Shown in pieces: positions 12,628 through 24,202 of a DNA stretch of 24,202 nucleotides. Each line of letters starts with the position of its first letter. Positions within the stretch are counted from its first letter, which is position 1. The notes beneath the pieces are model-generated. The model ran no database searches. It was not told the origin of the DNA and saw only the letters and a list, made by a program, of their open reading frames with translations. The position numbers were made by a program, and so were the translations under genes. Source of the stretch: a virus; IMG/VR virus record IMGVR_UViG_3300046674_000535, positions 1 through 24,202 of that record, one strand, 5' to 3'.

Positions 12628-14073
12628 TCAATTGGCAAGAGATTTATTTCTCTCTACTACCAATTTTATCAAATTTCCCACCAATTCCAGATGCCTGTCA
12701 TGCCGGAATCCATTCGGGTAAGGCATGTTGAATTCCTCTTCGAATGCCCTCTCGTATTCCTCCTTGGGGAGCGCGATGGGGCGGCGGCAGGTGGCCTTGA
12801 TGTTCGAGCCGCTGAGGTCGGTGACCTGCACGTCCTCGAAGTAGCGGCGGAGCAGTGGCTCCAGGGTTTCGGGGGTGTGGAAACGCAGCTTCTGCCACTT
12901 CCCCTTGACGAAGTTCATCTCGACGTTGTCCCCGTCGAGGAAGCTCATCTTGGTGGTGGCGGTCTGGGAGGTGACCCGCTTGGCCTGCTCGTCCCTGAGT
13001 TCGCGGGCGAGGTTGCGGGTGCCGAGGCACACGACCCCGTCCGCCGAGCAGAGGGCGTTGACGGTGTTCATCACCCAGTGCTGGTAGTCGAGAGTGGTCG
13101 TGGCGTTGATGACGGAGTCGAGGACCACCACGTCGTACAGGCCGTTGGTCTGGATGTCCTTGTCGATGTCGCGGATCATGCCGACGACGGCGCGGATGTC
13201 GACAGCGTACGAGCCGTCCCGGCAGCGGTAGGGCTCGTAGTCGTGGATGTTGAAGCCCTTGGCGCGCAGGTGCTTGGCGTAGTCGCCGTACCCGGCGCCG
13301 AAGTCCACGACCCGGTGGGTGGGCTTGAGCCAGGGCGTGACCAACTGGTCCCAGGTCTCCGAGCCGTAGGCGAGCTTTCCAGCCTTGGCCTTTGAAGAGA
13401 ACTTGCGAAGCCTCTTGGGCTGCACGATGTGCTGGTTCCACACCGGGGCCTTGCCCTCGATGGCGGTCCAGTCGTAGACGCCGTACTCGCCGGTGAGGTC
13501 GGCGTGAAGTTGGGCGGCGTCGGCCGACGTGACGGTCCAGGCAAGGAGGTCGAAGCGGTTGATGGAGGCGACGACGGCGTATTCGGCGTTGAGGACGATG
13601 CGGCCCTGGTCGTCGATGACCACACTCCCCCAGGGGCCGTGGCCGGCGGTCATGTGCCCGATGGCGTTGACGAAGGAGAGATTCTTCCGTTCCGCGACCC
13701 GGATCGACTGCCATGGAATCCACGACCAGGCGCCGATGACGCCGGGCTCGGCGTAGACGACGCTGGCCTCGGTCTCGACTCGGTTGTGCAGCAGGTTGAA
13801 CTGGATCTCGTCCTGCAACCTGACCTTCGTGCCGAGCATGACCGCGGGCGTGTGCGTCAGGCCGATGGCCTGGAGGCCCTTGGTTCTCTGGTGGCCTGCG
13901 ACCAGCGTGCCGTCGGCGTTGAGGATGACGGGCTTCACGACACCGTGGCGGCGTAGTGACGCCTGAAGCCTGACGAACGCGTCCTCGCTGAGGCGGCGCG
14001 GGTTGTAGTCGGCGGGGCGAAGCCGGTCGAGCGGGTACGCCTCGTAGAACGTCGTGGTGGGCGCGCTGCTCAT
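12628..14073 (-). CDS. ParB-domain protein fused to a SAM-dependent methyltransferase
   Basis: A 481-residue two-domain protein. The N-terminal ParB/Sulfiredoxin-type domain (about residues 12-100) shows PADYNPRRLSEDAFVRLQAS and the nucleotide-site motif GHQRTKG (60-66). After a linker region, a Rossmann methyltransferase domain starts with motif I VVDFGAGYGD (255-264) and an acidic ribose-binding position in HDYEPY, continuing to about residue 420. No DPPY or NPPF amino-methyltransferase motif is seen, so the methyl acceptor is unclear (DNA, protein or small molecule). ATG at 14073 overlaps the preceding ParB gene's stop (ATGA), so the two are coupled. Such fusions occur in actinobacteriophages; the ParB part may give CTP- or DNA-binding or nuclease activity. 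Confidence 0.82.
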   Translation of the reverse strand: MSSAPTTTFYEAYPLDRLRPADYNPRRLSEDAFVRLQASLRRHGVVKPVILNADGTLVAGHQRTKGLQAIGLTHTPAVMLGTKVRLQDEIQFNLLHNRVETEASVVYAEPGVIGAWSWIPWQSIRVAERKNLSFVNAIGHMTAGHGPWGSVVIDDQGRIVLNAEYAVVASINRFDLLAWTVTSADAAQLHADLTGEYGVYDWTAIEGKAPVWNQHIVQPKRLRKFSSKAKAGKLAYGSETWDQLVTPWLKPTHRVVDFGAGYGDYAKHLRAKGFNIHDYEPYRCRDGSYAVDIRAVVGMIRDIDKDIQTNGLYDVVVLDSVINATTTLDYQHWVMNTVNALCSADGVVCLGTRNLARELRDEQAKRVTSQTATTKMSFLDGDNVEMNFVKGKWQKLRFHTPETLEPLLRRYFEDVQVTDLSGSNIKATCRRPIALPKEEYERAFEEEFNMPYPNGFRHDRHLELVGNLIKLVVERNKSLAN

Positions 14074-14732
14074 GCCGCCTCGCCCTCCTCGTGGGCGTGC
14101 TGCAAGACGTGCCAGCCGAAGCCGAGGTCGCTGTTGGTGTCGTCAACGAACTTCGTGTAGATGGCGTTGAGGGCTTCGACCTCTTCGGAGGTGATCCTCA
14201 CCCGCTTGGACTCCCACTGGAGATAGCCCCATTGGAGGTAGTCGACGGTGGCTGCGGCACCGGTGCCCGCGCCATCGGAAGTGAGTTCCAACGTCTCGGG
14301 AAGAGAGGTGTCGTCGAGGAGCCGGTCTACGCTCTCGCGGTCGTAGCCGGTACCGGCCAGGTCCGGGATCTCGGAGAGGATCTCGGCCAGGAGCACGGTG
14401 TCGTATCCGGCGAGGTCGTTGGTCCGGTTGTCGACGATGACGATGCGGGCCGCCGCGTCGTCGTCGACGTCGACCCAGGTGACGGCGATCTGCTCCCAGC
14501 CGAGCTGCTGGGCAGCCGCGTATGTGTGGTTACCCGCCAGGATCTCGTTGTGGCGGCCCGTGTGGGTGCCCTTGTTGACGACGATCGCGCGGTACTGGCC
14601 GTTGACGGTCAGCGATTCGGCGATCGAGGGGAGGTCACCGTTGCGGGGGTTCCGGTAGTACGGAACGAGGTCCTCGGTGGGGACGGCGAGCGGCAGGAGC
14701 AGTTCGGGGATGTTGGCGGGGGTCGGGGTCAC
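14070..14732 (-). CDS. ParB N-terminal-domain protein
   Basis: A 220-residue protein. Residues about 13-110 form a ParB-like nuclease domain: VPTEDLVPYYRNPRNGD, then SLTVNGQYRAIVVN, the motif ILAGNHTYAAAQQLGW (from residue 64) and the strand ARIVIVDNRTNDL. The region after 115 has no helix-turn-helix like that of a true chromosomal ParB, so it is not a centromere-binding protein. The C-terminal part (SKRVRITSEEVEALNAIYTK) is helical and of unknown role. GTG at 14732 has AAGGGA about 6 bases upstream. It is the first gene of a coupled pair with the ParB-methyltransferase. The likely job is in phage DNA processing or modification, inferred from family and neighbours. Confidence 0.8.
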   Translation of the reverse strand: MTPTPANIPELLLPLAVPTEDLVPYYRNPRNGDLPSIAESLTVNGQYRAIVVNKGTHTGRHNEILAGNHTYAAAQQLGWEQIAVTWVDVDDDAAARIVIVDNRTNDLAGYDTVLLAEILSEIPDLAGTGYDRESVDRLLDDTSLPETLELTSDGAGTGAAATVDYLQWGYLQWESKRVRITSEEVEALNAIYTKFVDDTNSDLGFGWHVLQHAHEEGEAA

Positions 14733-14789
14733 TGGGCGTCCCTTGTGTAGGCCGTTCCCCGCGCCCTACAGCTAGTTCAGACTAGACGA

Positions 14790-15032
14790 TCACGCCGAGC
14801 CGCGGCGGTCGCCGGGGCGAGGGTTCAGCCGGTCCGTCAGTCGCCGACCGCCCACCCATCGCTGAACGTGGTGGATGGCGGCGGCCACCAGCCCGCAGGC
14901 GGGGAAGGCCACGAGGCTGGCGAGAAGGACACCGCCACCGCCGAGCTGTACGACGACCCAGGCGGCAACGGCGATGGTCGCCATGAGCAGGACGGCCATC
15001 GCGTCGGCGGCGAAGCGGAGGAGGGTGTGCAT
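14790..15032 (-). CDS. Small two-span membrane protein
   Basis: An 80-residue protein with two hydrophobic helices (about residues 9-28, AVLLMATIAVAAWVVVQL, and 33-52, VLLASLVAFPACGLVAAAI) joined by a Gly-rich turn, and a basic C-terminal tail. The ATG at 15032 overlaps the stop of the upstream 42-residue gene (TGATG), which fixes the start and implies translational coupling, since there is no strong ribosome site of its own. It could be a holin-like or superinfection-type membrane factor, but it lies in the early region, far from where lysis genes would be expected, so no function is assigned. Confidence 0.6.
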   Translation of the reverse strand: MHTLLRFAADAMAVLLMATIAVAAWVVVQLGGGGVLLASLVAFPACGLVAAAIHHVQRWVGGRRLTDRLNPRPGDRRGSA

Positions 15033-15160
15033 CACCGGTTGTTGCAGCCGCAGATGCCGGCAGGCAGACACCAGGAGTCACAGGATCGGCGCCACACCGC
15101 ACCGGGTACGGGAGGTGTCCGGCGCTCCGGCTCGGTGGGCGGTGCCTGCTTGGCGGTCAT
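15032..15160 (-). CDS. Tiny Cys-rich protein (42 residues)
   Basis: A 42-residue ORF beginning MTAKQAPPTEPERR and ending with four cysteines in 13 residues: Cys27, Cys31, Cys37, Cys39 (SCDSWCLPAGICGC). This spacing could bind zinc or form a knuckle. It starts 8 bases after the stop of the 65-residue gene and its own stop overlaps the next start (TGATG), so it is the middle gene of a three-gene string of small ORFs. No family recognised. Coding status rests on this tight packing. Confidence 0.5.
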   Translation of the reverse strand: MTAKQAPPTEPERRTPPVPGAVWRRSCDSWCLPAGICGCNNR

Positions 15161-15168
15161 GCTCCATG

Positions 15169-15366
15169 TCACTTTCGTCGCCGGGGAGTTGTGGCTGCTT
15201 CGAGTTCCGTGAGGTGCCGGGTCGCGTCTGGATCGGGGTCTGCTGGTACTTCGAGGCCCGGGTCACGTTCTGCGAGGGCCTTGATCGGCGTCCCGTCCCG
15301 CTCGACGAGGAGACGTTCGTACAGCTCGCGATCCTCTGGGTGCCCGGCGAAGCCCTCTGTGTTCAT
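15169..15366 (-). CDS. Small acidic hypothetical protein (65 residues)
   Basis: A 65-residue soluble protein beginning MNTEGFAGHPEDRELYERLL. ATG at 15366 has AGGAG about 5 bases upstream, a good site. The N-terminal half is a charged helix, the middle is Pro/Asp-rich (LEVPADPDPDA), and the end is basic (TTPRRRK). It is the first of the three-gene string and lies just after a perfect 13-base hairpin, so it is likely read from a promoter inside the hairpin-rich gap or by partial read-through. Function unknown. Confidence 0.65.
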   Translation of the reverse strand: MNTEGFAGHPEDRELYERLLVERDGTPIKALAERDPGLEVPADPDPDATRHLTELEAATTPRRRK

Positions 15367-15385
15367 GGCTCTCCTGAGTGCACGG

Positions 15386-15419
15386 GGACCCGCCCCCGGC
15401 GTGAGGCGGGGGCGGGTCC
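15386..15419 (-). terminator. Hairpin upstream of the small-ORF string
   Basis: GGACCCGCCCCCG at 15386-15398 pairs perfectly with its complement at 15407-15419 across an 8-base loop. It lies 20 bases upstream of the ATG at 15366 and could act as a terminator or attenuator for leftward transcripts. Confidence 0.6.
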
Positions 15420-15473
15420 GGTCGTGATCGTGGATCTTGGCGACGCTCCGGTGGCTCCGCTCAGGTGCGGGGC

Positions 15474-15522
15474 CGGTGCCTGGCGGGTTGGGCGCGGGGG
15501 ATTGGCCACCCGCCAGGCACCG
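15474..15522. repeat. Perfect 15-base inverted repeat
   Basis: CGGTGCCTGGCGGGT at 15474-15488 and its exact complement at 15508-15522 are separated by 19 bases. As RNA this would be a long stable stem; as DNA it is a large binding-site-like palindrome. A shorter stem, GTGCCG at 15530-15535 with CGGCAC at 15543-15548, follows immediately. Confidence 0.7.
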
Positions 15523-15547
15523 AAGGGGAGTGCCGCATGCCACGGCA

Positions 15548-15590
15548 CGTTGGTGAGCCGGTCCCTCGGCTGAGGCCGCCCTCACCAACG
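15548..15590 (-). terminator. Two-level hairpin after the adenine-methyltransferase gene
   Basis: CGTTGGTGAG at 15548-15557 pairs perfectly with 15581-15590, and inside it CCTC-GGCT-GAGG forms a second small hairpin. It begins 12 bases after the methyltransferase stop codon on the minus strand, the normal place for a terminator. Confidence 0.65.
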
Positions 15591-15602
15591 AGATCGACCG
15601 TA

Positions 15603-16523
15603 TCACGCTCCAGTGTTGGGATCTATCTCTAGCCATGGTGCAGCCCCGTACTCGAACCCGTCGAGGGGTGCTGTGCCGTGGGCCGTCGGCGCGTCAGTGA
15701 AGAACAGCTCCTGTTGGGCCGCTGCGGGCCTCGCGGTGAAGTCCTCGGGCCTGAGCGCCTGAGGGTTGAAGCGTGGAGGCGGCGCGGCCTCGCGGACCGG
15801 GATGACGGCGATCACGGTACGCACACCCACGACCGGGAAGGCGTCGTCAGGCAGTTCCGTGATGGTCCCGCGCACCTCCTGCACGCGGGCCCTGAAGTCC
15901 TTCGTCAGACGGTCGGTCCGGAAGGTGAGGCTGCCGAGCATGACCGCGACGACCAGGCCGCCCGGCTGAACGAAACGCAGTGCCCGTTCAACGTGCCGGA
16001 TGTCCTGCCGGTCAGCGAACGGCGGGTTCATGATGACCCGCTGGTAGCGGCGCTCTACCTTCACGCTGAGGAAGTCTGCGTTCACGATCTCGCGGGCATA
16101 CCCGCCAGCGCGGAGGTGCTCGGCGCGAGCAGTGTCGAGTTCGATGCAGTCGACGATGACACCGCAGGCGGCGGCAGCCTCGGCGATAGCACCACGTCCG
16201 GCCGACGGCTCCAACGCCTCGCAGCCGACCTCGAGTTCGGCCAGGTCCAGGAGTTGTTCAACGATGGGCTCTGGCGTGGGGTAGTACCCACACTCGGCAT
16301 CGGTGACCACCTGCCCCGTTGCGAGCAGCCCGGCGACGGCAGTAACGGCGGCGACCGGGAAGATGTGGGCGCGCCTGTAGCGGTTCCAGGTGCCACCGAC
16401 GGCGTGAAGGGCCAGATTGACCCGCTCGTACAGGTTGCGGTCGAGCTGGCCCCGTAGGCGGAGCGCCGAGCCATCGACCTCGGCGGAGCTGATGACGTCG
16501 AGAACGTCGGGATCTATCTGCAT
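15603..16523 (-). CDS. Adenine-specific DNA methyltransferase-like protein
   Basis: A 306-residue protein predicted to transfer a methyl group from SAM to adenine in DNA. The order is: an N-terminal region with LDRNLYERVNLALHAVGGTW (residues 28-46), motif X-like YYPTPEPIVEQLL (80-92), motif I EPSAGRG (105-111), an acidic ribose contact in IELD (127-130), and catalytic motif IV NPPF (166-169). The NPPF motif is typical of N6-adenine enzymes (known). No target-recognition domain of usual size is seen after motif IV, so specificity may be broad. The ATG at 16523 has GAGGGGGC upstream. It lies 10 bases after the 106-residue gene. Likely role: protecting phage DNA or altering host regulation. Confidence 0.82.
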   Translation of the reverse strand: MQIDPDVLDVISSAEVDGSALRLRGQLDRNLYERVNLALHAVGGTWNRYRRAHIFPVAAVTAVAGLLATGQVVTDAECGYYPTPEPIVEQLLDLAELEVGCEALEPSAGRGAIAEAAAACGVIVDCIELDTARAEHLRAGGYAREIVNADFLSVKVERRYQRVIMNPPFADRQDIRHVERALRFVQPGGLVVAVMLGSLTFRTDRLTKDFRARVQEVRGTITELPDDAFPVVGVRTVIAVIPVREAAPPPRFNPQALRPEDFTARPAAAQQELFFTDAPTAHGTAPLDGFEYGAAPWLEIDPNTGA

Positions 16524-16533
16524 GGTCGCCCCC

Positions 16534-16854
16534 TCACTCACTGCCGGTCTTGGTCTCGGCGGCGAGCAGCGCCGCTTCGAGCTCAACCAGACGGGCCGTG
16601 ACCATGAGGTGGGTGCGCACATATACCGAACTCCCGGCACCCTTCATCAGGTCGGAGGCGGCAATCAGGGTGAGGTTGTATGCCTCGTTCAGGGCGGCCC
16701 CGTCGTTGTCACGGCGCGCCTTGAACAGGTGCGCCGCAGCCTCGCGGACGAGTTCGGCCACGTCGGAGTCGTACTCCTCAAGGGCGTTGGCCGAGGCCGG
16801 CACGTCGAACAGGTTGCGGTTGATGTTGCGCATGGACTGGATGTCGTTCATCAC
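16534..16854 (-). CDS. Small helical hypothetical protein
   Basis: A 106-residue, almost entirely helical soluble protein (DVAELVREAAAHLFKARR, TARLVELEAALLAAE). GTG at 16854 is followed directly by ATG at 16851; GGAG lies 7 bases before the GTG, so either could be used. It precedes the adenine methyltransferase by 10 bases and follows a terminator-like hairpin after the ParB gene. It is probably cotranscribed with the methyltransferase. No motif that gives a function. Confidence 0.65.
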   Translation of the reverse strand: MMNDIQSMRNINRNLFDVPASANALEEYDSDVAELVREAAAHLFKARRDNDGAALNEAYNLTLIAASDLMKGAGSSVYVRTHLMVTARLVELEAALLAAETKTGSE

Positions 16855-16874
16855 TGTGGGGCTCCAGGCAGAAG

Positions 16875-16899
16875 GGGGCGGCCCGCTGGGGGCCGCCCC
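16875..16899 (-). terminator. Hairpin between the ParB gene and the 106-residue gene
   Basis: GGGGCGGCCC at 16875-16884 pairs perfectly with GGGCCGCCCC at 16890-16899 across a 5-base loop. It begins 12 bases after the ParB stop on the minus strand and would limit read-through into the methyltransferase pair. Confidence 0.7.
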
Positions 16900-16911
16900 G
16901 GGATGGACGGG

Positions 16912-18090
16912 TCAAGCTGCGACGGCGACCGGCTCGGCAGCCGCCTCGACCTCGGCGTCGCCCTCCTCCGGCGCTGCCGGACTCTCGGGCTCCACGTCGG
17001 CGGCCGGGGTGACCTCGGTCTCCGCGTCGACGTCGACAGCCGGGGCGGCCTCCGGCTCCAGGGCGGGCGCGACCTGTGTCTCCGCGTCGGCGTCGCCCAC
17101 AGCCGGGTCCACGTGAGCGAGTACGGCGTCAGCCTCGGCCACCAGGTCGGGCGCTGCGGCGGCGGGGTTGACCATGATCTCGCTGGCGTCGGCGTGCGCC
17201 TTCGCCTGACGGAGCTGGAACCGGGCCTTCTGTACGACGTCCGCGACCCGGTCCATCTGAGCAAGACGCTTGCCGACCTCCCCCGCCAGGGCGCGGGCCA
17301 GCTCCACGGGGTCCGCCTTACCGATGCTGTCCAGCAACGCCCACATCCCCTCGATGGCGTCGAGGTCGCTCTTGGTCTTGGCCTGCGCGCGACTCCGCTC
17401 GGCCTTCTCCTCGGAGGTCATCTCGTCGACGTCAACCATGGAGTCCTGCGTGGCCGCCGTCTCCTGCTTGCGCATGGCGTAGGCGATGTGGACGAGCTCG
17501 TTGTCGCTCTTGTCGCCCTTCTTCCAGTCCTGGAAGACCGCCGCCTGGTTGTCCTTCGAGAGGGCAGCGATCTGGACGGCGGCCTGGGTGCCGATGTGCC
17601 CGAGGTCGACGGCCGCCTGGATCTCCGGGCGCAGGGCAAGCAGGGCCAGGCGCTGGTTGACGAACTGGACCGACTTGGAGAAGGTCTTCGCGACGGCGGG
17701 AACCCGGTCGGAATCGCCGTCGTACTTGTCGTCCAGGACCTTCTTGAAACCGCGCGCCTCCTCCAGCGGGAGCATGTCCTCGCGGTTCAAGTTCTCGGCC
17801 ATGGCCTTCTCGAAGGAGTCCATGTCGCTGATCTCGGCCCCGCCCTCGGGCAGCAGGATCTTCGCCTCGATGGTGATGTTGTCCGCGAGCTCGTTGGCAC
17901 GGAAGCGGCGCTCGCCGGCCACGAGCTCGTACCCCTCCGCCACCTTCCGGACGACGATCGGCTGGAGCAGGCCGTGCTCCTTGATCGAATCGGCCAGCTC
18001 CTTCAGCGCGCCCTCGTCGAAGGTCTTGCGGGGCTGGTTCGGGTTGCGGTGGATCTGGCGCATCTTCAGGGCGGCGAACTTGTGCGACAT
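16912..18090 (-). CDS. ParB/Spo0J-like DNA-binding protein with acidic C-terminal tail
   Basis: A 392-residue protein with the full ParB layout. The N-terminal CTPase-type domain shows NPNQPRKTFDEGALKELADS (residues 16-35), LLQPIVVR and the motif GERRFRA (59-65). A helix-turn-helix region follows (about 125-150, VPAVAKTFSKSVQFVNQRL). The last 90 residues are low-complexity Ala, Glu, Asp, Pro, Val with repeated DAETxV blocks, unlike normal dimerisation tails. ATG at 18090 has GGAG 6 bases upstream and is preferred to the longer frame. No ParA partner is seen in the window. It may separate plasmid-like phage genomes, load on phage DNA or regulate transcription; a ParA outside the window would favour the first. 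Confidence 0.85.
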   Translation of the reverse strand: MSHKFAALKMRQIHRNPNQPRKTFDEGALKELADSIKEHGLLQPIVVRKVAEGYELVAGERRFRANELADNITIEAKILLPEGGAEISDMDSFEKAMAENLNREDMLPLEEARGFKKVLDDKYDGDSDRVPAVAKTFSKSVQFVNQRLALLALRPEIQAAVDLGHIGTQAAVQIAALSKDNQAAVFQDWKKGDKSDNELVHIAYAMRKQETAATQDSMVDVDEMTSEEKAERSRAQAKTKSDLDAIEGMWALLDSIGKADPVELARALAGEVGKRLAQMDRVADVVQKARFQLRQAKAHADASEIMVNPAAAAPDLVAEADAVLAHVDPAVGDADAETQVAPALEPEAAPAVDVDAETEVTPAADVEPESPAAPEEGDAEVEAAAEPVAVAA

Positions 18091-18147
18091 TTCGATCTCC
18101 AAGGGGTCGGTGGGGGCTTCTTCTTTCCCCCTTTCTTCTGGTTCTAT

Positions 18148-18240: not shown

Positions 18241-18468
18241 CTACTCGCGCAGATCAACTTTAGGCAGCACCCCCACGGGCCCCATGCCACCGCCGACCCG
18301 TTTCGGGTCGACGATCGCTAGAGCCCCCAACACGGCGAGCGCGACCTCGTCGCCCAAGACAACGTTTCCCCTTTCACCCGACTTCTCCAGTCGGACCAGC
18401 ACTCGATCCAGCTCGATCCCCACCCCGTACCCTCCCGCATTGCGGCGTTCCGCCTCCTTCACGGTCAC
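18241..18468 (-). CDS. Small hypothetical protein (75 residues)
   Basis: A 75-residue ORF beginning MTVKEAERRNAGGYGVGIEL. It reads as a small alpha/beta protein (LDRVLVRLEKSGERGNVVLG, EVALAVLGALAIV). The GTG start at 18468 lacks a strong ribosome site. The terminator directly after its stop supports it being a transcribed gene. It lies at the head of the minus-strand early region, where phages often encode short early proteins. No function recognised. Confidence 0.5.
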   Translation of the reverse strand: MTVKEAERRNAGGYGVGIELDRVLVRLEKSGERGNVVLGDEVALAVLGALAIVDPKRVGGGMGPVGVLPKVDLRE

Positions 18469-19394
18469 GAATCACTTAGATCCCCACACAGGCGAGTTCA
18501 TGGCGCGCACCGAAGCCCCATGGGCCGCCTGCGGCTGCCCCCGGGCGGGACCGAGGGAGCTGGCGACCTCAACAGCCGAACACCCCCTGCAGCGCACGCC
18601 TTCACCGATCTCACTACGGACATCACCTGCCGTCGACCAACACAGCCGACGCGCTGCACCACCAGCCGCAGACGCAAGCCTTGCGTTCTTGGCGCCCGCA
18701 AACATGGCGGCCCCCGGCAACGCAGCTGCCCGCGCGAGGCTCAAGCCCAGCCTCCGATCCCTTCCCTCATCCAATCTCAAGCTCTGCCAGCGGGAACTGG
18801 CCCATCGGCGCCCACCCGCCCCAAGTCCCACATAATGAACTACCTCGCCTTAACTAGACCAGAGAGCCCATCAGTCGAGGCCAGTTCACGTGAAGGTGAT
18901 GCACACGCTTGCCTCACACGCCATGAGGCACCTAGGCAGCACCCCAAGGTGTTCTTTCATGATCAAATATTCGGTGTGATGCATACCGCGAGCCAGCCAA
19001 CCCACTTCGAATGACCGAAATGTACTGCACCAGAACAAGCCTTCCTGGTCTTAAATAAACGTATCGGTCTAGTCCAACGAAGCCAAGTGTGGAAGCCTGA
19101 CGGGACGGCGTCAAGCGATTGATCACCGAGGGGGCACGAGTGTTACTCACCAGTCCAGGGGCGCGGCGCGGCGCGGGCCACGAACCCTTCCTGCGGCGGA
19201 TTGCGATCGAAGTACGCTCAAGGGCGACGACCGCAGCGGCCGTCTCGCAAATGGCGCTCGACGCCCTTCTCGCACATGCGCGAGCCAAAGCGTCGCGCCA
19301 CGCCGGATGCCGACGTCGCGATCCCGCTCCACCGACGTTCTCTGCGAATCGCGCGGGCGGAACCCACTCTCCCCTCCGTGACCGTGGAGGAGCA
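18469..19394. other. About 900 bases with no convincing gene
   Basis: Several long frames exist (such as 18500-18835 plus and 18472-18831 minus), but they are Pro/Ala/Arg-rich, lack good ribosome sites and overlap each other. From about 18836 to 19090 the sequence is distinctly lower in GC. Here an inverted repeat, TGCCTCA at 18910-18916 with TGAGGCA at 18924-18930, has a 7-base loop and looks operator-like. The segment separates the leftward early genes from the rightward regulator and probably holds control signals or decayed sequence. Confidence 0.5.
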
Positions 19395-19613
19395 GTGGCC
19401 GCAATCGGGGACCCGTCCAGCGCCGCGTACACCGTTGATGAATCGGGTACTCTCGGCGAGTTGATCAACGCATACGTGATCTGCCCAGCTAACTGCGACA
19501 CGCTGGAGTTTCTGTCACAGAGAACTCCGAGCGAGCTAGCGAAGCTCGGTAAATGCCCGATGCGTTGCGGAAACGATCTCGAATGGGTGCCCATTGAGTG
19601 GATTAAGGTGTGA
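19395..19613 (+). CDS. Small protein with two CxxxC motifs (72 residues)
   Basis: A 72-residue ORF with a GTG start at 19395 and GGAGGAG just upstream, a strong site. The C-terminal part contains CPANC and CPMRC spaced about 20 residues apart (ICPANCDTLEFLSQ, GKCPMRCGNDLEW), a layout that could bind zinc. The frame is open far upstream, but that part reads as non-coding low-complexity sequence. It lies before the butyrolactone-receptor-like regulator on the same strand, about 130 bases away, and could be its partner. No family recognised. Confidence 0.5.
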   Translation: MAAIGDPSSAAYTVDESGTLGELINAYVICPANCDTLEFLSQRTPSELAKLGKCPMRCGNDLEWVPIEWIKV

Positions 19614-19741
19614 TGTTCGGCTGTAACCCCGACACCCCCTGAAGAGATCCCAATAGGTCATGAACGGAAGACCGAACAGCACCCGATAGAACCGCCCGTA
19701 CCGCTCACTCCGGGACTGAATTTATCGAAAGGCAAGTGCGA

Positions 19742-20458
19742 ATGGAATCGAATCCCTCGAATGCTCCGCGCCGGCGGAGGCCTCAACAACGCGGCATCGA
19801 CACAAGGGCTCGGATCCTGGATGCCGCAGGACAGGTCTTCCTGGAGAAAGGCTTCGTGGGGGCCAGCATTGCCGACCTTATCTTTGCTGCAGACACGAGC
19901 AAAGGCGCCTTCTACGGGCACTTCAAGCCCAAGACCGCAAAACTTGACGTCGCCAAAGCCATCATGACCAATACGCTCACGATGGACGGACTGAAGCCAC
20001 AGAAGATAAAATTGCAGGAAATAGTCGACGTCGGAATGATCCTGGCATACAGAGTGGTCACCGAGAGTTCTTTTCTCGCGGCATTGACATTGTCATTCCA
20101 GCACGACGCACATAAAACCTATGGCACCCCATGGCCGGAATGGATCAAGTTCAACACCAGTCAGTTGGCCGAGGCCCAGAGGCGCGGCGAGGTAAGACCA
20201 CACATCATTCCAGAGACTTTTTCGTACCAAATCGCAGGAACATGGTCGGGTCTAGTTCTCACCGGGCGGGCTATCGATGGCGGGCTGGACGGTGTTCACG
20301 AACGGATTGCGTTCAGCTACAGGAGCCTGATGGCAGCCATCGCACAACCGGAGGTTATTCCATTCATAGACTTCTCAGCAGGCCGTGGAGAGCAGCTCTA
20401 CACGGAGTTCCTTGAGGAATCCAAACGCTTGCAAGCCTCCCAGCGAGAGTCACGCTAG
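19742..20458 (+). CDS. TetR-family regulator of the gamma-butyrolactone receptor type
   Basis: A 238-residue DNA-binding repressor resembling ScbR/ArpA-type autoregulator receptors. An Arg-rich N-terminus precedes the TetR helix-turn-helix (about residues 20-66): TRARILDAAGQVFLEKGFVG, then SIADLIFAA and the recognition segment TSKGAFYGHFKPK. The ligand domain has Trp131 and Trp134 (PWPEW), then AEAQRRGEVRP; a Trp at this place is typical of butyrolactone receptors (known), with the family's usual 210-240 residue length. ATG at 19742 has GAAAGG 9 bases upstream; a GTG at 19736 is an alternative. It is lower in GC than the phage genes. It probably represses itself and nearby lysogeny or cargo genes until a host or neighbour signal binds. 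Confidence 0.8.
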   Translation: MESNPSNAPRRRRPQQRGIDTRARILDAAGQVFLEKGFVGASIADLIFAADTSKGAFYGHFKPKTAKLDVAKAIMTNTLTMDGLKPQKIKLQEIVDVGMILAYRVVTESSFLAALTLSFQHDAHKTYGTPWPEWIKFNTSQLAEAQRRGEVRPHIIPETFSYQIAGTWSGLVLTGRAIDGGLDGVHERIAFSYRSLMAAIAQPEVIPFIDFSAGRGEQLYTEFLEESKRLQASQRESR

Positions 20459-20610
20459 CTGTCCTGGGGCGCCGGGAGTTCGTCCCCGGACTGGGAACGA
20501 GGGCGCCAATTCGCCTGGTAGCTCGAAAGGCCGTGCGATCCGGACATCGCGATCGCACTTCCTCGAAAAGTCCGAGGTTGGATAGGCGGCTCACCTCGCG
20601 GGTGACAGCA

Positions 20611-21573
20611 TCAGCCGCCTGACACACCGGACAGCCCGCGCCAGTGAAGGACGACTCGCCCCGGCTCGATCGTCCGGACGCCGCGGGCGCTGGCGGGGAA
20701 CACCTCGATCTTCTCCAAGAGAAGCAGCGTAATGCCCCTCTTCGATGCGGTGGGTGCAGAGTTCCACCACTTCACCAGGTCCTTGGCATGGCCGAGTGAG
20801 AAGTTCGCCATCTGCTCTGCGTAGCGAAGGCGCGAACGGATGCCCTTGAGGTTGGACGCGATCTCGCGCTCTCCGGCTACCAGCGCCTCGCCGCTGATCT
20901 CACGGTTTCCATAGAGCCTCCCAAGCTCCGCCTGACGGCCCTCCAGCTCCTTGATGTCCCTCTTGAGGTCCTCAACCTGCTTACGCACGGCGGCCTGCGC
21001 TTGGGCGATCTGGGCTCGGATACCGGGCTTGAGGAGTTCCGCCACAACGTTTTCGCCGACGTGGTCCTCCAACAGCTCGGCATCAATCCGGACCTCGCCG
21101 CAGCCGCCGATACCCTTCTTGTCCTTCGGGCGACAGCGGTATCCAGGCGTAACCGCATTAGTACGGGCGCCCCCGAGGTCCCATGTGCACTTGCCGCAGG
21201 TGCTGGCCCCACCAGTCAGGAGGTAGTCATACGCGGGCTCTGGGACCTTCGTGCTGCGAGCCTGCTCCCGCGCCAGAAGAGCCATGAACTCTTCGCGCGT
21301 GATAGCACCGGGGTGACCCGCATCAACGAGTTCGCCGTCATCGTCGTAGCGCAGTCCAGCGATCGCCGGGGTGCGGAACAGACGTCCAATCGACGCGTCC
21401 TTCCACTCCCCGCCGAGGGTTCCCCGGTAGCCCTCACCGTTCGCCCATACCGCAATGTCGTGGTTGGACTCATCGCTGATGAGCGCCCGGCTCACCATCA
21501 GCCGGGTCGCGTCCACTTCATCGTCACGTAGCCGACGACGTGAGGCGTCCTCGAAACCGTAGAGCCGTGGCAT
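20611..21573 (-). CDS. Large serine recombinase lacking the catalytic domain
   Basis: A 320-residue protein that matches only the C-terminal two thirds of large serine recombinases. The recombinase domain runs from about residue 5 to 95 (EVDATRLMVSRALISDESNH, ASIGRLFRTPAIAGLRY). A zinc beta-ribbon follows (Cys126, Cys129, Cys147, Cys158), then a long coiled coil (about 186-252, VRKQVEDLKRDIKELEGRQA) and a final beta region. The N-terminal resolvase domain with the nucleophilic Ser is absent, and the excisionase-like gene begins only 105 bases upstream, so it is not simply in another frame. The start is uncertain; an open frame continues to 21630. It could be a relic of an earlier integrase or a DNA-binding accessory factor. 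Confidence 0.8.
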   Translation of the reverse strand: MPRLYGFEDASRRRLRDDEVDATRLMVSRALISDESNHDIAVWANGEGYRGTLGGEWKDASIGRLFRTPAIAGLRYDDDGELVDAGHPGAITREEFMALLAREQARSTKVPEPAYDYLLTGGASTCGKCTWDLGGARTNAVTPGYRCRPKDKKGIGGCGEVRIDAELLEDHVGENVVAELLKPGIRAQIAQAQAAVRKQVEDLKRDIKELEGRQAELGRLYGNREISGEALVAGEREIASNLKGIRSRLRYAEQMANFSLGHAKDLVKWWNSAPTASKRGITLLLLEKIEVFPASARGVRTIEPGRVVLHWRGLSGVSGG

Positions 21574-21678
21574 GCAGTGGTCCGTTCTCGTCTCGTGCGC
21601 CCGTAGCGGCCTGATCCTAGGCCAGGGCACATGTCCCAGCCATGGCCCAGCGCGACCGACAGACTCAGGGCTACACGA

Positions 21679-21930
21679 TCACTGCACCAGTGGCGTCACC
21701 CCGAGCACTTGCCACAGTGCAGCAGTGGGGACTCTCACCGTGCCGCCCAGAGGGAGTGTCTGCACGGGGAAAGACCCCTCCTTGATCAAGTTGTAAGCCT
21801 TGTGTGTGCCGATCCCGAGTGCTCGCGCAGCCGTCACAACGTTCACGGTCGGTGGCAGCGCGAGTAGTTCCTCCAGGGTCATCGCGCTGACCCCGGAGGC
21901 CGTAGCTACAGATGCGTCCTTCGTTGTCAT
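21679..21930 (-). CDS. xis: Excisionase-like helix-turn-helix protein
   Basis: An 83-residue protein with a winged-helix/MerR-like DNA-binding domain at about residues 29-75: VNVVTAARALGIGTHKAYNL, IKEGSFPVQTL, then the wing GGTVRVPTAALWQVLG. This is the common actinobacterial excisionase pattern (known). The ATG at 21930 has only a weak ribosome site; an ATG at 21882 is possible. It is divergent from the tyrosine integrase with a 112-base gap that contains a perfect palindrome. The expected role is to bend attachment-site DNA and bias integrase toward excision, and perhaps to repress int. The frame is open to 22053 but that part overlaps the control region. Confidence 0.75.
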   Translation of the reverse strand: MTTKDASVATASGVSAMTLEELLALPPTVNVVTAARALGIGTHKAYNLIKEGSFPVQTLPLGGTVRVPTAALWQVLGVTPLVQ

Positions 21931-21976
21931 TCCCGTTGTCGCGTTCTCCCCCACGCCAACATGCCGTAAGGATACT

Positions 21977-21994
21977 CCAACACTGGAGTGTTGG
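21977..21994. promoter_or_regulatory. Operator-like palindrome between xis and int
   Basis: CCAACACT at 21977-21984 and AGTGTTGG at 21987-21994 form a perfect 8-base inverted repeat with a 2-base spacer. On the minus strand it lies between TTGCCC (21998-21993) and TATCCT (21973-21968), a weak promoter pair for the excisionase gene. A repressor bound here would block that promoter and could affect int, which starts 49 bases away. Confidence 0.55.
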
Positions 21995-22042
21995 GGCAAG
22001 ATAGGGATTCGGTCGACATAGACCGACACAGAAGTTCCACAA

Positions 22043-23950
22043 GTGAAGGCCATGAAGGGGATGTTCGTGTTCGACCCCAGCTACACGCGGCGTTGCGCCT
22101 GCCAGGAGCCCGTCATAGACGAGGACGGCAGACCGCAGAAGGATGCCAACGGCAAGCTGACGATGCGCAAGATCGGCGCTAGCTGCCCGAAGCTCGAAGA
22201 GAAGGACCACGGCACCTGGCACCTGTATTTCGAGCTGGAGCCCGGCGAGGGCGGCAAGCGTCAGCGCGTCCGGCGCGGCGGGTTCGCCAAAAAGGTAGAC
22301 GCCCAGCGGAAGGCGAAGGAACTATACGACGCCGCCACCGCCGGCACCGACGTACTGTCCGACGAAACGTGCGGCAACTTCTTCCTCCGCTGGATCAAGG
22401 CGAAGAAGTCCCTCGCACGCACCACTCGCCACGGCTATCAGGAGCACCTCGCCAACTACCTCGTCCCACACCTGGGACACATCAAGCGACGCGACCTCAA
22501 GGTCCGCCACCTCGACCTCATGTACAACGCGATCGACAGGGAGAACGCGGAGCGCATCCTCCACCGGCTCCGCGTGACGGAACTCCAGGAGGCTCGGGAT
22601 GAGGCCCACCGGGCCTGGGTGAAGACCGCTGGCTACGCCAAGAGAGAAGAACGCCGTCCGTACCGGCAAGCCTTCCTGGAGGCCAACAAGGCTCTACGCG
22701 AGGGCCGCAGGGGCCTGCGAAAGGTCACGTCCCCCGCAACCATGCACCGCATCAACGACACCCTCAGCTCGGCGCTCACCTGGGGGATCAAGCGCGAGCA
22801 GGCATTCGCCAAGAACTGGTCGCAGCTCGTCGAGCTTCCGTCGGTCACACGGCCGAAGCCGATCGTCTGGACCCCGGAACGCGTCGAGCACTGGAGGCGC
22901 ACCGGAGAGAAGCCCGGCCCGGTCATGGTCTGGACACCCAAGCAGACTGGGGAGTTCCTCGACTTCGTCAAGGACGACTGGCTCTACGAGCTGTGGCACT
23001 CATTCATCTTCAACGGCCCCCGACGCGGCGAAATGGCCGCACTGCCGTGGACCGAGGTCAGCACCGACGCGCTCTGGATGCGGATCTCCCAGCAGATCGT
23101 CGAAGTCGCCTACAAGCTGTACGGCGAGGCGCCGAAGGCCGACAGCGTCCGTACCGTGACGCTGAGCCTGGAGTCCACCGACAACCTGGTGAGCTTCCGC
23201 GCGAAGCAGGAGCAGAAGCGCCAGGAGTGGGGCGATGCCTACGTCGAGACCGGCCGCACGTGGACGCACGAGAACGGCGAGGCGCTCCACCCCGACTGGA
23301 TCTCCCGACGCCTCGCCCGTCTCGTGGAGCTGTCCGGCCTTCCGCCCGTCCGTCTCCACGACCTACGCCACCTGGCCGCCACCCTGTCCCTGCTCGCGGG
23401 CAATGACATCAAAGTGGTCCAGGAGAAGCTGGGGCACTCCTCGCGCCAGATCACTTCCGATACCTACACCAGCGTGCTGCCCGAGATGATGCGTGCCGAG
23501 GCCGAGTCGGTCATGGCCGTCGTCCCCCGCGAAGTCCCCTTCAAGGTGCACACGCCGCTGGAGATCCCCAAGACGGCTTGGCAGGGCGACGTCGCCGTCT
23601 TTTTCGCCCACGGCGCGCGCCAGGCGGGTGAGGACTGGTCCGTAGGCGCCCAGACCCTGCCCGACTCCGATCTCCTTGGCCTGGTCACCCTCGCCGGCCG
23701 GGGCCAGGACGACGCCGCCAATGCCGCCGTGAAATGGATGCGCGATCACTGCACGAACAACGACCTAGAGCTGGTCCGGATCGAGAACTTCAACGACCAG
23801 TACCAGGGAGATCAGCGCCAGGAGTTCGCCCTCCTCCGCTTCACGATCGCCCGAACGGAGACTCCGAGCATCGCGGGGTGGGACACCTCGCGCCCCGCTC
23901 CTCTCCGCCGCAACACCAGGCAGAAGAGGGCTCGTTCACGCGCCGCGTGA
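22043..23950 (+). CDS. int: Tyrosine-type site-specific integrase
   Basis: A 635-residue phage integrase. The catalytic set is complete: Arg327 in GPRRGE, His439-x-x-Arg442 in HDLRH, His465 in LGHSS, and the nucleophile Tyr475 in DTYTSV. An arm-binding region and a core-binding (SAM-like) domain precede this at about residues 40-230. The protein is longer than the usual 380-450 residues: it has an N-terminal Cys-containing segment (RRCACQEP) and about 150 residues after the catalytic Tyr. The start is GTG 22043 or ATG 22052; neither has a strong ribosome site. Its stop is 126 bases from the tRNA 3' end, the standard arrangement for integration into a tRNA. It would act with the excisionase encoded divergently. 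Confidence 0.95.
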   Translation: MKAMKGMFVFDPSYTRRCACQEPVIDEDGRPQKDANGKLTMRKIGASCPKLEEKDHGTWHLYFELEPGEGGKRQRVRRGGFAKKVDAQRKAKELYDAATAGTDVLSDETCGNFFLRWIKAKKSLARTTRHGYQEHLANYLVPHLGHIKRRDLKVRHLDLMYNAIDRENAERILHRLRVTELQEARDEAHRAWVKTAGYAKREERRPYRQAFLEANKALREGRRGLRKVTSPATMHRINDTLSSALTWGIKREQAFAKNWSQLVELPSVTRPKPIVWTPERVEHWRRTGEKPGPVMVWTPKQTGEFLDFVKDDWLYELWHSFIFNGPRRGEMAALPWTEVSTDALWMRISQQIVEVAYKLYGEAPKADSVRTVTLSLESTDNLVSFRAKQEQKRQEWGDAYVETGRTWTHENGEALHPDWISRRLARLVELSGLPPVRLHDLRHLAATLSLLAGNDIKVVQEKLGHSSRQITSDTYTSVLPEMMRAEAESVMAVVPREVPFKVHTPLEIPKTAWQGDVAVFFAHGARQAGEDWSVGAQTLPDSDLLGLVTLAGRGQDDAANAAVKWMRDHCTNNDLELVRIENFNDQYQGDQRQEFALLRFTIARTETPSIAGWDTSRPAPLRRNTRQKRARSRAA

Positions 23951-23992: not shown

Positions 23993-24076
23993 ACGACAGG
24001 GTCGCCAGGACCCTCAACTCGCCCGACCCTCCAGCGAAGTTGCTGGTCAGAACGATTCTGCGTGGGCAATGCAGAG

Positions 24077-24150
24077 TGGGGCGGGTGGGACTCGAACCCA
24101 CGGCCGACGGATTATGAGTCCGCTGCTCTAACCGGCTGAGCTACCGCCCC
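24077..24150 (-). tRNA. tRNA with anticodon CAU (elongator Met or Ile2); inferred prophage attachment site
   Basis: A 74-base cloverleaf on the minus strand. The 7-base acceptor stem GGGGCGG (24150-24144) pairs with CCGCCCC (24084-24078), with discriminator A at 24077. The D arm is GCTC...GAGC; the anticodon stem GCGGA/TCCGT holds the loop CTCATAA with CAU at 24116-24114. The T arm is GTGGG, TTCGAGT, CCCAC. CCA is not encoded, as usual in Streptomyces. It is not the initiator, whose 5' end differs. The CAU loop could be elongator Met or lysidine-modified Ile2; acceptor features would decide. The 3' half faces the integrase, so the crossover core probably lies within about 24077-24116. Confidence 0.93.
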
Positions 24151-24184: not shown

Positions 24185-24202
24185 CTGCCGCAGCATAGCC
24201 GC

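Follow-up and report, generated by a model that had tools for sequence, protein, structure and literature searches.

An exact exchange of a regulator cassette was found at a conserved slot in a Streptomyces prophage, and this exchange is what is new here. The prophage is represented by the 24.2-kb IMG/VR record IMGVR_UViG_3300046674_000535, positions 1 to 24,202, which is called the window below. The record is evidently partial, because related prophages span 68-78 kb. The swapped segment (18499-20583, no strand assigned) replaced an operon of about 1.53 kb, which encoded an XRE regulator and a MAB_1171c-family membrane protein in the relatives. The incoming cassette appeared to comprise the gene of a TetR-family repressor similar to ScbR and AvaR1 (19742-20458, + strand), a small gene for a protein with two cysteine pairs, and a clade-specific promoter/operator-like element.

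The swapped segment in its prophage

Comparison with 11 relatives by blastn revealed that the flanks were 72-94% identical and that the homology ended at 18436-18531 and restarted at 20573-20619 in nearly all of them. The identity with the relative L093 was 91.5% through position 18498 and 94.3% from position 20584, with zero shared DNA between these positions; therefore, 2.09 kb of incoming DNA replaced the ~1.53 kb. Leftover pieces of the XRE or membrane-protein genes in the window were rejected because the tblastn matches were no better than chance. It is highly improbable that the cassette is a non-functional passenger or an assembly chimera: the swap was borne by a single record, the operator was partly degenerate, and the GC content dropped to 0.52-0.58 within the TetR gene, but both junctions coincided with the slot boundaries seen in the relatives, the TetR ORF, the small gene and the promoter part were all intact with the conserved positions retained, and the low GC3 of the TetR gene (~0.65) was likewise found in homologues from AICE-like contexts.

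The TetR gene was located inside the prophage and not in host DNA, with phage genes on either side. To its left were genes for terminase, portal (phrog_64), methyltransferase, and three ParB_N proteins; to its right were a gene for the C-terminal domain of a serine recombinase, an HTH_17 gene, and a tyrosine integrase gene, which ended at a tRNA-Met. Both flanks were common to 11-12 related prophages. The early operon was led by the gene of a ParB-family protein (16912-18102, - strand); a conserved sequence resembling a promoter of this gene, GCATATAGAATAG, lay beyond the swapped segment. The stretch 12628-18102 (- strand) formed one operon with three ParB_N-domain proteins, one of which was fused to a methyltransferase domain. 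The gene o18241 (18241-18468, - strand), which encodes a small conserved phage protein of 75 aa, was kept in all close relatives. The closest annotated terminase, from Streptomyces phage ZL12 (pZL12), shared 58% identity with the terminase of the window. ZL12 is described as a linear-plasmid prophage, whereas the integrase in the window adjoined a tRNA-Met gene, and no such TetR gene was listed in the annotated 40.5-90.4 kb part of ZL12.

On the other side of the swapped segment, the large serine recombinase (20611-21630, - strand) consisted of the C-terminal domain only, without the catalytic domain. It was kept in the relatives with 72-95% identity, and in every close relative it lay next to a tyrosine integrase that was intact. 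The idea of a decaying remnant was rejected, since dN/dS was about 0.2 in five close in-register pairs; two more pairs, most likely out of frame, yielded values without meaning. Because of this conservation and the low dN/dS beside an intact integrase, the protein appears to be retained for some other function. The excisionase-like HTH_17 protein (21679-22053, - strand) was divergent from the tyrosine integrase (22043-23950, + strand), and the palindrome CCAACACTGGAGTGTTGG at 21977-21994, between the two genes, was nearly invariant in all relatives and is probably the core operator of the integration module. The tRNA-Met gene (CAT; 24076-24150, - strand) had its 3' end towards the integrase, and the sequence was conserved with the relatives to position 24202; this gene is the probable attachment site, with host DNA probably lying past it.

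Regulators found in the same slot

Twelve close relatives that spanned the region were collected from IMG/VR scans in which terminase, ParB, and serine recombinase served as queries. All of them had neighbour genes in common with the window, and the TetR gene was absent from all of them. The slot was occupied by an XRE regulator in 12 of 12, followed by the MAB_1171c-family membrane protein, which was intact in 11 of 12, and both genes were on the same strand as the window TetR gene. This pair was the usual occupant of the slot (L093:4348-5717 and equivalents), and a literature search found no paper naming MAB_1171c. In the XRE version, the inverted repeat AATGTC-N10-GACATT was conserved in front of the XRE gene, and it was absent from the window; therefore, the regulator and its operator move together.

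A wider survey, in which the serine-recombinase protein was searched against 393 Streptomyces genomes, identified 10 further loci with the XRE regulator and the membrane protein (two distant, one in which the membrane gene was degraded). Four distant prophages, whose ParB, recombinase, and HTH neighbours were of the same kind, carried LuxR/TrmB-like regulators (L197, L200, and L201) or a PucR-like regulator (L199), and a fifth distant relative (L234) had a LuxR-like regulator in the slot. Divergent from the LuxR-like regulators lay the gene of a small protein that looked exported and began with a hydrophobic stretch (signal peptides were judged by eye). This protein contained two to three identical copies of a locus-specific D-x-x-W tetrapeptide (DTTW, DSTW, or DVQW in the slot versions, with DSSW and DSVW as well over the full set of loci). 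These pairs filled the same slot as the TetR gene in L197:4419-5862, L200:3415-4803, L201:4460-5876, and L234:6715-8051, and were also found in L235 and L236. Judged from these features, the LuxR/TrmB-like regulator and the DxxW protein look like a propeptide-receptor signalling pair. In the relative G002, lanthipeptide-cluster-like cargo was recognized by eye (L160, ~34033-38922 of its record), namely proteins resembling LanB and LanC together with a Cys-rich precursor that ends in GGCGSTCGTSCVSNAA.

The earlier note had placed the TetR gene between the early genes and the integration module, and this position was borne out, with a regulator in the slot of essentially all related prophages. 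Regulators have turned over at this place, and the slot is, on this comparative reading, a regulator-exchange site in the Streptomyces prophage family. A more far-reaching proposal, which we consider rather unlikely, is that the slot is a dedicated lysogeny-signalling site, where swapped sensor modules (XRE, LuxR/DxxW, PucR-like, and TetR) would answer different chemical or peptide signals and the window phage would eavesdrop on a host-made hormone.

The TetR protein, its clade and its pocket

The ORF of the TetR protein (19736-20458) opened at GTG 19736, and the in-frame ATG at 19742 was preceded by an AGG-type ribosome-binding sequence. The protein contained a TetR_N domain with an E value of 1.1e-8 (Pfam, over the curated cutoff). 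Residues 17-200 matched positions 1-187 of the 191 in the NCBIfam model NF041196, "ScbR family autoregulator-binding transcription factor" (E 5e-33), with a score of 114.8 bits, which was below the equivalog cutoff of 150. The top solved structure was AvaR1 (6wp7; E 6e-26, residues 16-235), although the similarity was distant (phmmer, 94.5 bits). The N-terminal HTH and the full-length similarity linked the protein, at the level of sequence, to the ScbR/ArpA-type family. The butyrolactone-receptor-like repressor proposed in the earlier note was thus upheld as an intact ORF with similarity to this family.

The residues of the ligand pocket were compared with those of AvaR1. In AvaR1, Gln64, Thr162, and Gln165 contact the lactone and Thr108 serves in coupling, while Gln64, Thr108, and Trp127 were invariant across all 90 butenolide receptors mapped (PMC7347384). 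Trp127 was retained in the window protein and in the whole clade described below, and Leu88 of the pocket was also retained. Five residues were changed in the window protein (Gln64 to Thr, Thr108 to Ser, Phe161 to Trp, Thr162 to Ser, and Gln165 to Val, in AvaR1 numbering). Gln64 and Gln165 were replaced in the clade, and Thr162 was retained only by L155.

Phylogenetic analysis grouped the window protein with two proteins from plasmids and eight from genomes in a clade (n=11, support 100/100), which stood apart from the AvaR1/5xay branch and from the other sampled ScbR-family proteins. The best homologues in the genus-wide search of 393 Streptomyces genomes were 57% identical. Members were located on Streptomyces linear plasmids, in AICE-like settings (called by eye), and at chromosomal loci. 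The clade was under purifying selection, with dN/dS of 0.11-0.29 for close pairs; the value for the window TetR against L150 was 0.24, with dS near saturation. No second phage carrier of the TetR gene was found by tblastn in 50,697 phage records, and no other carrier was found in IMG/VR by pattern scan, with either a single protein or the clade alignment as the query. A pattern scan of the genome contigs returned solely unrelated TetR N-termini.

Since the lactone-contacting residues were replaced and the clade lay outside the AvaR1 receptors, sensing of gamma-butyrolactones in particular, which had been part of the earlier proposal, was not supported. A true gamma-butyrolactone or butenolide receptor, with which the prophage would read a host hormone and leave repression as the hormone accumulates, would agree with the family-level match and with the retention of Trp127 and Leu88; we regard it as improbable in view of the five pocket changes, the NF041196 score under the cutoff, the place of the clade in the tree, and the result that a Pfam scan of 20 window ORFs detected no AfsA-type synthase domain, the record being a fragment of the element. 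A standard lactone ligand is not supported by these residues, and the protein does not count as a demonstrated butyrolactone receptor.

The small gene directly upstream of the TetR gene (19395-19613, + strand; GTG start taken at 19395 after GGAGGAG) encoded a protein of ~72 aa that contained two pairs of cysteines (CPANC ... CPMRCG), possibly a zinc ribbon. It was recognized as the 3' part of the ORF 19119-19613. A homologue was directly upstream of the TetR gene in L002, L003, L155, and L156, and L157 kept a C-terminal remnant. A P450 gene followed the clade TetR gene in L002 (14929-18100), L155, and L156, and an enoyl-CoA hydratase gene was present too in L002 and apparently in L155. The P450 and the enoyl-CoA hydratase are possible biosynthetic partners for the ligand of the TetR clade.

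The promoter/operator-like element and its proposed role

An unaided palindrome search upstream of the TetR homologues found no common site, and pairwise footprinting of the close homologues revealed a shared element. At the ten clade loci, TTGACG-N17/18-CAnaCT was found upstream of the cassette on the strand opposite to the TetR gene, with AGACC-N4-GGTCT 13-16 nt further on. In the window, the element (19041-19121, - strand) consisted of TTGACG-N17-CACACT followed by the operator-like sequence ACTAGACCGATACGTTTA, and it faced o18241, the first gene in its path, and ParB. A PWM built from the 10 other loci scored the window at 31.1 bits at 19115 (- strand), a value that was not wholly independent because the GTCAAG anchor was picked after the alignment and the window had been seen; the second-best window site scored 13.3. 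The clade members scored 28-48 when left out by group. The maxima of 12 first-order Markov sequences were 12-20, the XRE-bearing relatives gave at most 13.9, and 31 non-clade ScbR-family loci gave at most 18.0, with a wider spacing range in the window scan than for the control loci and with 3.6 kb for each non-clade locus against 24 kb for the window. The element was therefore present in the window and specific to the clade. The two promoter boxes gave most of the window score, and the operator, with a degenerate right half-site, contributed 6.4 of the 31.1 bits. By eye, the element showed no more than a loose likeness to the aco ARE given in PMC7347384. An ECF-like promoter on the + strand (GGAAC-N15-CGTC) was ranked lower as a reading of the element because GGAAC was intact at 5 of 11 loci, whereas TTGAC and CA...T were intact at 11 of 11. 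The promoter reading of 19041-19121 is pattern-based, and the site is a candidate.

The region 18836-19741 and the gap at 21931-22042 had been proposed as targets of the TetR protein. The putative element lies within the former, but the latter is not a supported target because the palindrome there was kept in all XRE-bearing relatives and the clade element occurred once in the window, with no copy in the integrase/xis gap or at the ParB promoter. Binding of TetR in the integrase/xis gap was rejected, since the palindrome was conserved in relatives without TetR.

The best explanation, for which we judge the case to be evenly balanced, is a ligand-responsive TetR cassette of the ScbR-like clade that was swapped in and acts on the divergent promoter and on itself. 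The cassette, with the divergent promoter/operator, the cysteine-pair protein, and TetR, would have entered the prophage and displaced the resident XRE and membrane-protein operon. A TetR dimer would bind the operator-like sequence, most likely the one just 3' of the divergent - strand start at 19041-19121, and the bound TetR would block transcription towards o18241 and the early operon that ParB leads, besides autoregulating its own operon. TetR would then be freed from the DNA by a small molecule, which may or may not be a butyrolactone. In favour of this reading, the - strand had no site resembling a terminator from the element to o18241. The TetR gene is placed as in a prophage lysogeny regulator: it is flanked by the early operon and the integration module, and it is transcribed away from the former. 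The binding to DNA, the way in which TetR regulates, its ligand, and a possible influence on induction are inferred, and control of prophage induction by TetR is plausible.

Several features argue against TetR as a master switch. The leader from the element to o18241 was about 600 nt, and the window contained one element, compared with several operators for classical phage repressors. Moreover, the early operon may escape control by TetR because the conserved promoter-like sequence of ParB lies outside the swap. The best explanation is further weakened because the gene past the divergent promoter was not conserved among the other clade loci and because the operator was the poorest-scoring part of the element in the window. 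The same single element and separate ParB promoter would also fit an accessory cargo, in which the cassette regulates itself alone, or perhaps host operators, and the slot is a permissive cargo site that plays no part in the cycle of the prophage. This possibility is doubtful but deserves weight: the XRE repeat was likewise single in the 68.7 kb of a relative, and clade members elsewhere adjoined P450 and enoyl-CoA hydratase genes instead of phage genes. However, a DNA-binding regulator was found in the slot of nearly every relative, which exceeded the expectation for random cargo, and the slot regulators were mostly in the same orientation, divergent from the o18241/ParB operon. In G002, the sole other convincing repressor candidate by eye was an XRE-DUF397-like pair.

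The proposed ligand-responsive cassette resembles several known systems in part. It shares with the AvaR1, ScbR, and ArpA receptors (NF041196; PDB 6wp7 and 5xay) the full-length TetR similarity, Trp127, and an operator-like element beside the gene; in contrast, the window TetR is distant from them in sequence, pocket and clade, is prophage-borne, and has no AfsA partner in the scanned ORFs. The pseudo-receptors (ScbR2, SrrB, BarB, and AvaR2) are also ScbR-like, have no linked synthase gene and altered lactone-contacting residues, and possibly respond to a different ligand, but the window clade is set apart by a promoter/operator element of its own and by the cysteine-pair partner. Those sampled non-clade homologues that have Ala at position 64, as candidate pseudo-receptors, formed separate branches. 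The TetR/ScbR-like genes of Streptomyces linear plasmids (NZ_CP108436.1 and NZ_CP107890.1) belong to the same clade, with the element and the upstream small gene, but they adjoin P450 (and enoyl-CoA hydratase) genes, whereas the prophage copy is the regulatory cassette alone. Heteroimmunity in temperate phages, such as the lambdoid phages, arises from exchange of the immunity region. Here, too, a regulator and its operator were exchanged as a block between otherwise nearly identical phages, but the incoming module is a putative ligand-sensing TetR with plasmid and chromosomal kin, and its role in immunity is putative.

Because the regulator was exchanged for a hormone-receptor-like repressor, the window prophage may listen to and obey a different signal from its relatives. 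The open papers that were searched yielded no description of actinophages reading host hormones. Should the swapped modules decide lysogeny, close Streptomyces prophages would differ mainly in the signal that they obey, and hormone reading by actinophages would become directly testable. The promoter/operator element of the clade could be used as an in vitro probe for a new Streptomyces signalling molecule.
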